Origin: Protula sp. h YS-2021 | Lineage: Eukaryota > Annelida > Polychaeta > Sabellida > Serpulidae | DNA length: 64,000 nt | NCBI GenBank assembly: GCA_949752745.1 | Contig: OX457025.1 | Location: 102,596,558 to 102,660,557 of the forward strand | Direction: 5' to 3' | Part shown: piece after piece, positions 14,301 to 35,300 of the stretch | How positions within the stretch are numbered: position 1 is the stretch's first letter | Layout: the number at the start of each line of letters is the position of its first letter | Notes under the pieces: generated by a model | What the model saw: the letters and a program-made list of their open reading frames with translations, nothing else | What the model was told of the DNA's origin: nothing | Databases searched by the model: none | Program-made: the position numbers and the translations under genes

Positions 14301-17300
14301 TGACGGTTAAGGAAGATGTGACGGGTTTTTGCAAGGAAGATGTAACGAATAGAGCACATTGGCTTTGCACCAAACGAGGTGTTCCATCAACAACATAGCC
14401 GGGCTTATTTATTTATCTATTTGCTATTTATGTATTTATTTATTCCCATGTTTATTTATAATAAAAAAAAAACAAATGAAGAAGTTTAACATGAAACATA
14501 TATATCATTATTTACAAAAATAAATATTCTTGAGAACTAATCGATTTTATTTTTTATAAAAAAAAAAGAAATTTAACCATGTCATGTGCTTTATGGATTT
14601 CAGAGGACATTGGACCCGTTGCTGCTAAGCCAAAATATCAAGAACTGTAAGTTTTCTTAAGCGTGTTACATGTTTTATGAAATCCGTGACTCTATACAAG
14701 TGCACAGGCCTGCAGAAATATTTATTTATTGTTTGTCCCAGACCCTAGGTCAATAGATGTTGATTGCATGATTTAGCCCATCATTACAATATAGTAAATA
14801 TTTTACGTATTTTAAGTATTTCATTTCTAAGCACAACATTGCCATTCAGTAGCGCAATCAGTATTTAACTTTGTGGCGTATATTCAAAGCATGAAATTAT
14901 TCAATAAATTTTAAAAAATCTGATGTATGGAGAAGATGCCGACTTTTATACGAAATTTTAGTCGAACCTGGAAATGTTTTGTATTTTATAATCTATTTTG
15001 TTGAACTTATACAACAATGATTTCTTATTGTGAAAAGTATTTTGTCCGAAAGAAGTGAAAAAGAAATAAGAAAAATATCGTAATTGAGTACCATGTTTTG
15101 TTGTTTGCTGTGCAGGAAAAGAAAAAAAAACAGCCAAAAAAACCTGGCATTAGTATTTATTTATTTTCTTTCTGTAGGTTAGCTGTGTCGGATGCGGAAC
15201 CAAGGAAATATCAGCTAGAACTAGCAAGGCCTGGAATTGAGGGCAGGAACCAGATAGTCTGTGCGCCTACCGGAAGTGGAAAAACCCACGTATCGGCACT
15301 GATCATTAAAGCGCATCTTCACCGCATGATGAAAGCAAATAGCGAAGGGAAGGGGGAGAAAGCCAAAGTGCTTTATTTGACTCCGCGGTTCACGATCTTA
15401 CAGCATGTGTTAAGGTATGTGTGGTGCTCAGCAACCCAACCCTCCCTCTGCCCCTACCTCCTCCCCCTCTGCCTCTCCCCCCTCTCCCCCCGCCCCCTCC
15501 CTCTCCCCTCTCCCTTCTTCCAATCACTTATTCCCCACCCTCTCGCCTCCCTCTTTCCCCCTCCCCCTCCCTCTCCCCCTCTCCCCTCTTCCCCTCACTT
15601 ATTCCTCACCCTCTCTCCTCCACCCCTCTCCCCTTCCCCTCTCCCCTCCCCCTCCCTCTACCCTATCCCTCTCTCCCCCTCCTCCTCCCCTCTCCCCTCT
15701 CCCCTCTTCCCCTCACTTATTTCTCACCCTCTCCGCTCCACCCCTCTACCCTTCCCCTTTCCCCTCCCCCTCCCTCTCCCCTATCCCCCTGTCCCCCTCC
15801 TCCTCCCCGTCTCCCCTCTCTCTTCTCTCCTCTTCCCCTCACTTATTTCTCACCCTCTCCCCTCCACCCCTCTCCCCTTCCCCTCTCCCCTCCCCCTCCC
15901 TCTACCCTATCCCTCTCTCCCCCTCCACCTCCCCCTCTCCCCCCTTCCCCTCACTTATTCCTCACCCTCTCCCCTCCACCCCTTACATTCCCCCTCTTCC
16001 CCTCACTTATTCCTCATCCTCTCCCCTCCACCCCTCCTCCTTCCCCTTCCCCCTCCATTCCCCTCCGCCCCTCGATAGTTATACACTCAGCAACATTTTT
16101 AGGGGAGAAAAATACTTGTGTTTTCTGAACCTATTTTTTAAGAGAATATACAAGACAGTGTTCAGTGTAAGAATTTAGGGTTATAAAAATCCACATAATT
16201 GGGCCCAATTGGAGGATTGGCAAGTTGAATTTTGCAGAAAGGTTTTGGCTTTTCTACTTAATTAAATTGGGATAAAAAGGCGTAAAGAAACAGAAAATAG
16301 AGACAGAAAACAAACTAGCTGGGAACGTATTCGCAAGTGGACTGTAAAAGAGTCTAAACAATTGGTAAAATAGTTTTCAAAGCTCGTATGTTAGCTTTCA
16401 ATGTGGTAAACTTTGCAGGGTGAGGAAAAATTAGATTTTTATCATTTATAATATTTTTAACATTTCTTTGTAATTTATCAAAAAAATGCAGTCGAAACGA
16501 CGTCTCCACCGACAGACGTCGTTAATCTAACGTAGTAACAGCGTTTTTTTAAAGGTAGAAAATAGAAGTGGAAACAACGTCTGTCTCCTGACATTGTATA
16601 GACTTTCGGAAAGTGACAATATAAGCAGATGTTGGGGGAAATCGTAATATAGAATCGTCGCTAAGTGTGGTCCTTCGTCACTATACTCCCGTTCTGGGGT
16701 GTCCCGTCATCCAAGATAGTAGGGTGAAAAGGCCGGTTCTACTGCACTTTTTGACGTCATACTGTCTGGAAGTGACGTCATACTGTCTGGAAGTGACGTC
16801 ATCATGTCTGGAAGTGACGTCATAGCGTCTGGACCGGAAGTGTTGTCTAGACCGGAAGTGCTGTCTGGAGTGGAAGTGACGTCATCATGTCTGGAGCGGA
16901 AGTGACGTCAGGATAAGTGTAAGGATAGGCGCGGCCCTCCATGACGTGATAATGACGTCATGATGACGTCATACTGTCTGGAGCGAAAGTCTGGAGCGAA
17001 AGTGGTTTGGCCGAGTCAATCATCATGAAGCCAACGAACTCGACCTGTCAATCAGTGTAACCATGGCAACAGAGCCTAAAAAGGTCGACAACCCCCCCCC
17101 CCCCTAGGACAGACTATGTACCGACCCCCCCCCCAGGACAGACTATGTACCGACCCCCCCCCCCCTAGGACATACTATGTACCGACCCCCCCCCCCCAGG
17201 ACAGACTATGTACCGACCCCCCCCCCTAGGACATACTATGTACCGACCCCCCCCCCCCCCCAGGACATACTATGTACCGACCCCCCCCCCTAGGACATAC

Positions 17301-32300: not shown

Positions 32301-35300
32301 CTCAGCAGAATTTTACTTGTGTATATGAATGTCTCACTTACAGTTGTCGAGTTGTACAGCTGCACTGCTACACAGCAGAGAGATCTAGCGGTGAAGTTAA
32401 CTGACGGTGAAGTTAAATGGTCTGCCAAAATGGTATTCATCCGCGAAGAAGCACTGTAATGGCGGTAAAAATGCATACAGCCAGCTGTGCAAATAGCCTA
32501 TGACTACTTTATAACAAAACTTTACATAAAACTGAATCAAATGGTGAAATTTTCATATAAATCGACCAAGTATAACGAAAGGTATTGTTTTACAAAGTTT
32601 CAATTAAGCAAATAACCAAAGTTTGTTTACAAAGTTTGTTTACAAAGTTCACTTTTTATTTATAAAGTTTCAATAAACACTTACCGAAATAGTTGTCACT
32701 GGATGCCATCCCTTGATCTGATGTGATCCAATTGTAGTTCTACAAATTGTACTTCCTTGCTCCACTCACCGAAATGACTGTCACTGCTGTATGCTCATCC
32801 CTTATATACCCCTCTGATGGAACTGAAGCTGACTTGACAGAATGTTGCTCGCCTAGGGGGGGGGGGGGGGGGTCGAAAAAATGAAAAATGTTCAGAATCG
32901 TCTGAAACGGATAAATATGCAAAAATCACAATTTCGAGGGGGGGGGGGGTCGAAAAAATGAAAAATGTTCAGAATCGTCTGAAACGGATAAATATGCAAA
33001 AATCACAATTTCGAGGGGGGGTGGGGTCGAAAAAATGAAAAATGTTCAGAATCGTCTGAAACGGATAAATATGCAAAAATCACAATTTCGAGGGGGGGGG
33101 GGGTCGAAAAAATGAAAAATGTTCAGAATCGTCTGAAACGGATAAATATGCAAAAATCACAATTTCGTGGGGGGGGGGGGGGGTCGAAAAAATGAAAAAT
33201 GTTCAGAATCGTCTGAAACGGATAAATATGCAAAAATCACAATTTCGAGGGGGGGGGGGGGGGTCGAAAAAATGAAAAATGTTCAGAATCGTCTGAAACG
33301 GATAAATATGCAAAAATCACAATTTCGAGGGGGGGGGGGGTCGGTACATAGTCTGTCCTGGGGGGGGGGGTCGGTACATAGTCTGTCCTAGGGGGGGGGG
33401 GTTGTCGACCTTTTTAGGCTCTGTTGCCATGGTTACACTGATTGACAGGTCGAGTTCGTTGGCTTCATGATGATTGACTCGGCCAAACCACTTTCGCTCC
33501 AGACTTTCGCTCCAGACAGTATGACGTCATCATGACGTCATTATCACGTCATGGAGGGCCGCGCCTATCCTTACACTTATCCTGACGTCACTTCCGCTCC
33601 AGACATGATGACGTCACTTCCACTCCAGACAGCACTTCCGGTCTAGACAACACTTCCGGTCCAGACGCTATGACGTCACTTCCAGACATGATGACGTCAC
33701 TTCCAGACAGTATGACGTCACTTCCAGACAGTATGACGTCAAAAAGTGCAGTAGAACCGGCCTTTTCACCCTACTCAAGATGCGTATGAAGCTGATTATT
33801 TTTCAAACGTAGGTAGGGGAAAACCTAAAATTATTAAAATTTATGTCATTATTTTGGCCTATTTTTAAAGCTACCTGTCATGGCTACCATTTCCGGAGAA
33901 AAAACCAACACAAGCACGTGATATTTTGGTTGTATTTTGATTATATTTGAGGCCATCGTGTATTTTCTACCCCTGCTCAAAGTGTATTTTTCAACATAAC
34001 ACGTTGATTAGATGTCGTCGAAGGTTGCAGTTTTGTTGGTTCCAAAAGCAAGGTTAAAACAGCGTTGCTTACCCAAGTCTATTCAACGTTTGTGTAAAAG
34101 CTGTTTGCAAGACGCTGATCTGTGGTCGCGACCAATCACAACCAACGAAAAACCGGAGTTTATGTGGTTATGTCTGGTCAACGTCAAAACTTCAAATCGC
34201 TGTTGGATGGACGTTGAAATGTTTACCGGCTTATTATCCAATAAGTCAAATTAAATGTAAACTCAGAAAACCGCATTCTTTCTAATATTAAAATAGAGAT
34301 ATGAGCACTGCAAGTACATTTATTTACAAGGCCCCAAAAATGTAGAAAAATATGGAGATGTTTTATTTGATTATTGAAGCGATTCTTTACAATTATTAGG
34401 ATTATTTGTATGATTATTTCTGTGATTATTTCTATGATTATTTCCAGAGAATTTCAATCATTTCTTCCGCTGTATTTGATTGGTCACAAACATGGTGGAT
34501 CCAATACGGATATGAAACTAAAAGTGAAACTGGAAGCCAACGATGTGGTTGTTGTAACGGCGGACATCTTCAGAAATGCTCTGGCTGACAAGGAGATGTC
34601 TATTTTTGATGTGACCTTGGTGCTGTTTGATGAGTGTCATTATACAATGGATAAGCACTCCTATAATCAGATCATGAAATGTTATCTGCAGGTAAGAGAA
34701 AGAGAGAGAGAGACAGGGAGAGAGGGAGAGAGAGAGAGAGAGGGAGAGAGAGAGAGGGGGGGAAGAGAGAGAAAGGGAGAGAGGGCGAGAGAGAGAGAGA
34801 GAGAGGGAAAGAGAGAGAAAGAGAGAGAGGGCGAGAGAGACAGAGAGAGAGAGAGAGAGGGGGAGGGAGACAAAGAGAGAGAGAGAGAGAGAGAAAGAGA
34901 GAGGGAGAGACAGAGAGAGGGAGAGAGAGACAGAAAGGGGGAGGGAGACAAAGAGAGAGAGAGAGAGAGAGGGTTTACAATGTACGCATACATGCATATT
35001 CATTTATTTATTTTACTTACAGTTTTCTAAACTCAGGATTATTATACTTTCGACGTGCCCATATAGTGTCTCTGAAATCCCTGTCTATTGGCATATACGG
35101 GATTCAAACCCGGGCTACAGAACAACAGCTGCATGGCTGACAAGCGTCTTTAACCACTCGGCCACCGACCCCCATCAATGTTAAATTAACGCGTTGAATA
35201 CATAATCATAACAACGCTTCAGTAATAAAAAGTTTTAAGAAAAGTACTTTTTTGGCGCGAAAAAAATCACGTTTATGGATTTGAAATTGGGATCCGGATG

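Follow-up and report, generated by a model that had tools for sequence, protein, structure and literature searches.

It has long been asked whether the Polintons of animals are transposons or particle-forming viruses, and the question is posed by a locus of the serpulid annelid Protula sp. h YS-2021. The stretch analyzed here (the window: 64,000 nucleotides, positions 102,596,558 to 102,660,557 of the forward strand of contig OX457025.1, assembly GCA_949752745.1) carries a Polinton/adintovirus-like element of 17,058 bp at positions 16718-33775. An earlier note on this DNA had given 16712..33781, which is the element plus its target-site duplications (TSDs). We consider it most probable (roughly 85%) that the element is a young, adintovirus-like Polinton/Maverick provirus, one of a large family integrated in this genome. 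Its ends, TSD, gene set, capsid fold and sister copies, together with ratios of nonsynonymous to synonymous polymorphism (pN/pS) below 1 in the virion genes, all point to such a provirus as judged from sequence. They further suggest that the element inserted recently, into an intron of an apparent RIG-I-like receptor gene, and that the family is spreading in the manner of a virus and is not a decaying relic, because the sampled near-identical relatives mostly keep capsid and integrase working.

Ends, target site and age of the insertion

The boundaries of the element are set by the following features.

16712..16717, unstranded: target-site duplication CAAGAT, left copy
16718..17166, plus strand: left terminal inverted repeat (TIR), 449 nt, with eight TGACGTCA sites
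33328..33775, minus strand: right TIR, 448 nt, with eight TGACGTCA sites
33776..33781, unstranded: target-site duplication CAAGAT, right copy

The termini read AGTAGGG...CCCTACT, giving the combination of TIRs starting with AGT and a 6-bp TSD that is expected of Polintons/Mavericks. The outermost 385 nt are identical between both ends, and the alignment over 449/448 nt contains no substitution in 447 sites. The perfect ends and identical 6-bp flanks described in the earlier note are thus borne out, and the divergence between the repeats, which it had proposed to measure, amounts to zero substitutions, the repeats differing in run lengths only. If substitutions accumulate at 5e-9 to 1e-9 per site per year, as assumed here, the lack of substitutions in the 446 sites entered places a 95% upper bound of ~0.7 to 3.4 million years on the age of the insertion.

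We take the TGACGTCA octamer of the TIRs to be a CRE/ATF-like site. A CRE-specific meaning is weakened by 10 more copies in host DNA at 3935-4328, a repeat with an 11-bp unit in which ten TGACGTCA sites present the same octamer as the element ends.

A large family of sister copies

The family was searched for in the 863-Mb genome (218 contigs), and the best 111 of 9084 integrase candidates were scored. All 111, window included, are full length, 99-100% identical and without stops, and they lie on contigs C1-C11 (~855 Mb) and on five small contigs. The idea that an open element is exceptional is therefore not supported for this genome, at least among these best 111 of 9084 candidates. Twenty of the other 110 scored copies, spread down the list, were sampled further. 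A perfect 6-bp TSD flanks 15 of the 20, all different from each other and from that of the window; a tip search by mismatch recovered both tips in 5 copies (4 with equal flanks), a blast-based search yielded 14 copies with equal flanks, and the figure of 15 combines the two. Of the remaining five, four have no recognizable end pair, and in one the flanks do not match. In 17/20, residues 1-457 of the capsid are encoded by an open frame.

Divergence between sister copies reaches 0.4-2.9% over ~4 kb around the integrase (7 loci), and in the capsid gene the synonymous divergence between copies is as high as 0.073 per site. The integrases of seven other loci differ from the window copy by 0-1 nonsynonymous and 6-16 synonymous changes, low nonsynonymous counts being partly built in since these loci are the best protein matches. 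The copy ends fall into several types (AGTAGGGTG, AGTAGTATG, AGTAGTAGG, AGTAGGGTATAAA) despite 99-100% identical integrases, hinting at module exchange.

Conservation of the virion genes

The virion and integration module occupies the minus strand. Homologous gene blocks occur in two bivalve-symbiont assemblies, NZ_JRAA01000006.1 (L001) and JACCHT010000004.1 (L002).

23697..24134, minus strand: probable adenain-like protease
24131..25504, minus strand: double-jelly-roll major capsid protein
25509..25850, minus strand: minor virion protein, presumably pVI/pX-like
25847..26605, minus strand: putative penton, labeled in part from synteny
26618..26827, minus strand: small Cys-rich open reading frame (ORF)
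26812..27393, minus strand: conserved protein with a homologue in L002
27390..27716, minus strand: protein that we take to be PX-like, with a homologue in L002 and aligned to an L001 ORF
27709..28368, minus strand: packaging ATPase, Adeno_IVa2/Pox_A32-like
28365..29471, minus strand: rve integrase with chromodomain

The structure model of the capsid protein is a double jelly roll, as in Polinton/Maverick capsids. The ATPase matches Adeno_IVa2 (PF02456) and Pox_A32 (PF04665) above cut-off, as expected of a Polinton. Likewise, the integrase carries an rve domain (PF00665, 8.2e-11, above cut-off) and, at residues 348-388 of 389, the C-terminal chromodomain of adintoviruses (PF00385, 6.9e-8). The protease scores 20.2 bits (5.2e-4) against Peptidase_C5 (PF00770), just below the 21.3-bit cut-off, and is 34% identical to the ORF in the same position in L001. 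The penton frame is open, syntenic and 33% identical to an L002 protein. The identical ends, TSD, open core genes and capsid fold support a complete, young and virus-like element, as first proposed; the accompanying claim of intact genes stands for the core frames and fails for the NADAR gene, which is split into two frames in the window copy.

Many young copies in one genome make it possible to measure selection on virion genes, and these first counts favor a virus. Pooled over pairs of the 21 sequences (the 20 sampled copies and the window), pN/pS is 0.06 for the protease (20/21 usable), 0.04 for the pVI-like protein (18/21), 0.20 for the capsid (19/21) and 0.36 for penton residues 86-252 (17/21). 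The virion proteins, which played no part in choosing the copies, are thus kept across diverged copies. This is what would be expected of functional virion genes handed on between insertions, and among the evidence assembled here it is the strongest for a role of capsids in the spread of the family. The suggestion that the element could be mobile or form particles gains support from the family, as 111/111 scored integrases (the best of 9084 candidates) are open, 15 different TSDs occur among 20 copies and pN/pS is below 1.

The variable residues of the penton are clustered, e.g., at 102-113, which may reflect recombination or, alternatively, an exposed loop under selection. From about residue 80 on, the penton is 89.5-91.7% identical to that of the window in 6/20 copies; the pVI-like protein and capsid are 97.8-100% identical.

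Weighing the explanations

A number of observations weigh against a young, virally spreading family. Before pN/pS was computed, any sequence that contained a stop or a gap, or whose end lay outside the piece, was removed (penton 4/21, capsid 2/21, protease 1/21, pVI-like protein 3/21), a filter that favors open frames, and the pooling over related copies is not tree-based and ignores relatedness. Decayed copies are under-counted because copies were picked via the integrase, as the best 111 of 9084. The capsid gene is fragmented in one of the 20 sampled copies, was not found at its expected place in another and is matched from residue 2 in a third. The 375-nt end pieces of five copies show 22-37 differences to those of the window, too many for one simple burst. 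Finally, the product of the frame assigned to the polymerase (18219-21905) has no polymerase match in Pfam, PHROGs, NCBIfam or PDB sequences.

A self-synthesizing transposon that moves only within the genome, its capsid genes carried along with no particles made, would fit the facts that the virion is known from genes alone and that the scored copies are spread over C1-C11 and five small contigs. It is nonetheless unlikely, given that the low pN/pS of protease, pVI-like protein and capsid, even with the openness filter and the pooling in mind, is not expected of freely drifting passengers. That the insertion is old and its ends were homogenized by gene conversion could be argued from the inner inverted repeat, which is only 89% identical, but the open core frames, the perfect TSD and the low divergence of the sister copies make it very improbable.

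Near-identical copies in such numbers also make mis-joins possible, and the element could in principle be an assembly artefact fusing pieces of several family members. Matching TSDs, however, flank it inside one host intron whose exons are in phase, and 15/20 sampled copies likewise show matching TSDs, so that an artefact is more improbable still. Least probable of all is that the host has co-opted the element into the receptor locus: the location inside a likely antiviral receptor gene would suit it, but the features are those of a typical young insertion, and 110 more near-identical integrase copies lie elsewhere among the best 111 of 9084 scored.

Starting from the integrated provirus, a more specific picture can be drawn, to be held tentatively. 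The family would be a living swarm of integrating adintovirus-like viruses, with more than 100 young copies sharing near-identical integrases. Its virion genes would be under selection, the penton varying most and in clusters, as expected if particles infect cells. Virus-borne PC4/Pur-alpha-like proteins would bind the G-rich strand of subterminal arrays in replication, and capsid proteins would be translated from polycistronic mRNAs through conserved ATGA start-stop coupling.

Replication, accessory genes and a proposed life cycle

The remaining parts of the element are as follows.

17092..17359, plus strand: subterminal C-run array, unit ~31 bp
17426..17432, plus strand: inward-facing TATATAA box, candidate promoter
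17473..17748, plus strand: small ORF past the left TATA box, no assigned function; a longer form starts at 17392
17848..18126, plus strand: left inner inverted repeat, 89% identical to 32198-32461, with a GTAAGT donor-like site; candidate spliced leader of PolB
18219..21905, plus strand: putative PolB-type polymerase, judged by motifs, 1228 aa, with a weak EndoVII/HNH-like insert
21961..22308, plus strand: PC4 single-stranded DNA-binding/coactivator domain protein
22322..22693, plus strand: ORF without significant likeness
22750..23091, plus strand: PUR-like family ORF (weak)
22994..23368, plus strand: PUR-like family ORF, start uncertain, overlapping the preceding one
29577..29909, minus strand: ORF with no assigned function, matched in 8/8 fetched integrase loci, window included
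30011..30441, minus strand: NADAR gene, in two frames in the window copy
30634..30966, minus strand: ORF distantly like 31716-32228
30991..31635, minus strand: PUR-alpha-like domain with a Cys-rich tail
31716..32228, minus strand: ORF with no assigned function
32198..32461, minus strand: right inner inverted repeat, with TATAAAAG and GTAAGT, overlapping the start of the 31716-32228 ORF
32802..32808, minus strand: inward-facing TATATAA box, candidate promoter
32856..33401, plus strand: subterminal G-run arrays, units of 77 bp and 31 bp

The 18219-21905 frame presents what we take to be PolB exonuclease and polymerase motifs, in order, and presumably OTU-like Cys and His motifs at residues 256-266 and 352-359. 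At 1228 aa it is the longest ATG-initiated ORF of the element, far longer than the best of 30 shuffled versions (153 aa at most) or of three host stretches of similar length (206-416 aa); the open frames therefore go beyond chance. The PC4 protein has no database relative at E 0.001 among 6 candidates, and no sequence likeness to the PUR-like family was found among the window ORFs compared. The 30991-31635 protein has one database relative among 58 candidates, and its structure model, built from 4 sequences, is of low confidence (predicted local distance difference test score of 61). In the window element, Pfam gives two matches to NADAR, each in a frame of its own, and these frames overlap. 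Both halves share one frame at 5 of 7 other integrase loci and were not found in the fetched stretch at the other two; the window copy thus has a lesion in one accessory gene, and sister copies free of that lesion exist.

As a linear DNA, the element would be replicated by its own PolB through protein-primed strand displacement. The PC4 and PUR-like proteins may serve as single-strand binders in this process, which makes their genes candidates for the single-strand-binding protein thought to be needed in protein-primed replication. Two inward transcription units would start near the CRE-rich ends, with spliced leaders, and capsid genes would be read from compact mRNAs on which 4-nt start-stop overlaps couple translation. 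Carried in particles, the element would then pass from cell to cell or from animal to animal, the proposed reason why the capsid genes stay functional, and the integrase would insert its DNA, creating the 6-bp duplication. After landing in the receptor intron, the window copy would have lost its one-frame NADAR gene, unless it already lacked one on arrival.

Compact gene junctions

Along the chain from integrase to protease, 4 of 8 junctions are exact ATGA overlaps, while of the remaining four, two overlap (by 8 and 16) and two are separated by gaps (12 and 4). Among the distant relatives, which are 26-36% identical over the aligned parts, three of the four ATGA overlaps recur: L001 has those at penton/next ORF and capsid/protease, L002 that at PX/next gene. 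The L001 ORF past the penton has no match to the pVI-like protein of the window and is paired with it by position only. Further L001 junctions are unlike those of the window (gaps of 35 and 2, overlap of 10). Between capsid and protease, the overlap is 4 nt in 17/17 sampled sister copies with both genes full length, copies that are not independent. These recurring overlaps suggest termination-reinitiation coupling or plain compaction; the former would be a translation mechanism unusual for animal DNA elements. Possible hexon-protease fusions are noted for adintoviruses in the part of a preprint consulted (PMC11071296).

Relatives and known systems

In the portions of PMC8097293 available to us, 134 intact Mavericks are reported from 17 vertebrate species, with a mean length of 16,862 bp, a mean TIR of 402 bp, a 6-bp TSD and at most 38 intact elements per genome. 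The Protula element shares with them its 17 kb, ~400-bp TIRs, AGT-type ends and 6-bp TSD, as well as two inward gene modules and the same core genes. It differs in having its ATPase in the integrase/capsid module and in its PC4, PUR-like and NADAR genes. The count here, at least 111 integrase copies with open frames, compares with at most 38 intact elements per genome in that survey, two different measures. With adintoviruses, as far as described in the sections of PMC11071296 consulted, it shares the rve integrase with C-terminal chromodomain, the adenovirus-like virion gene set and, presumably, a PolB with OTU-like N-terminal motifs; PC4 and NADAR receive no mention in the main text of that work. 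The portion seen of a NADAR survey (PMC9503650) contains no mention of polinton, adintovirus or virophage.

Adenoviruses have a protein-primed polymerase and ATF/CRE-like sites near their ends, a probable likeness to the element that extends to the putative adenain-like protease and to the hexon fold. Unlike adenovirus, the element has its own integrase for integration, and Pfam scans of its submitted ORFs gave no match to the adenovirus DNA-binding protein, PC4/PUR-like proteins being present instead. Unlike known Pur-alpha/PC4 proteins, these are virus-borne, one with a Cys-rich tail. In the open-licence literature searched, polinton was not found linked with PC4, NADAR or termination-reinitiation. 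Within the literature searched, the abundance, the measured virion-gene selection, the PC4/PUR-like/NADAR gene set, the recurring ATGA overlaps and the insertion site are new here.

L001 and L002 are filed under Solemya velum and Bathymodiolus gill symbiont bacteria. Capsid and integrase occur in both and the protease in L001; in L002, the matches to capsid and ATPase are split across frames. Their Polinton genes are likely host DNA inside bacterial assemblies. No relatives turned up in IMG/VR scans with the capsid protein and its alignments, with PolB or with an integrase alignment.

The host gene and its surroundings

The interrupted gene has the orientation of the element's PolB.

15188..15414, plus strand: host exon with receptor helicase motif I, 5' limit not set
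15415..34447, plus strand: host intron of the RIG-I-like receptor gene, holding the element; splice sites by eye
34448..34691, plus strand: host exon with receptor helicase motif II

Both exons find their best matches in RIG-I and MDA5 helicases. A donor-like AAG/GTATGT at 15414/15415 and an acceptor-like TTTCCAG/AGA at 34447/34448, placed by eye, let them fit in phase across the 19,033-nt intron. On the same strand lie a weak CARD match near 11229-11402 and a Helicase_C match near 41485-41595, both below cut-off, and a RIG-I C-terminal domain near 43164-43385, above cut-off. Taken together, these domains indicate that the interrupted gene is apparently a complete RIG-I-like receptor gene, likely antiviral, with the element in one of its introns, which makes the insertion a natural experiment on such a gene.

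No tRNA gene was found in the window by ARAGORN. The host ORF 54413-55660 (minus strand, 416 aa) has no Pfam match at 0.01; by eye, we take its product to resemble HSPA12-type Hsp70 proteins. At 62928-63726, a segment of ~800 bp has 66-bp inverted ends (86%, GAGTAGTATGAAA...) and contains three stretches resembling element positions 32458-32585; no TSD was seen by eye, and the segment looks like a non-autonomous relative of the element.

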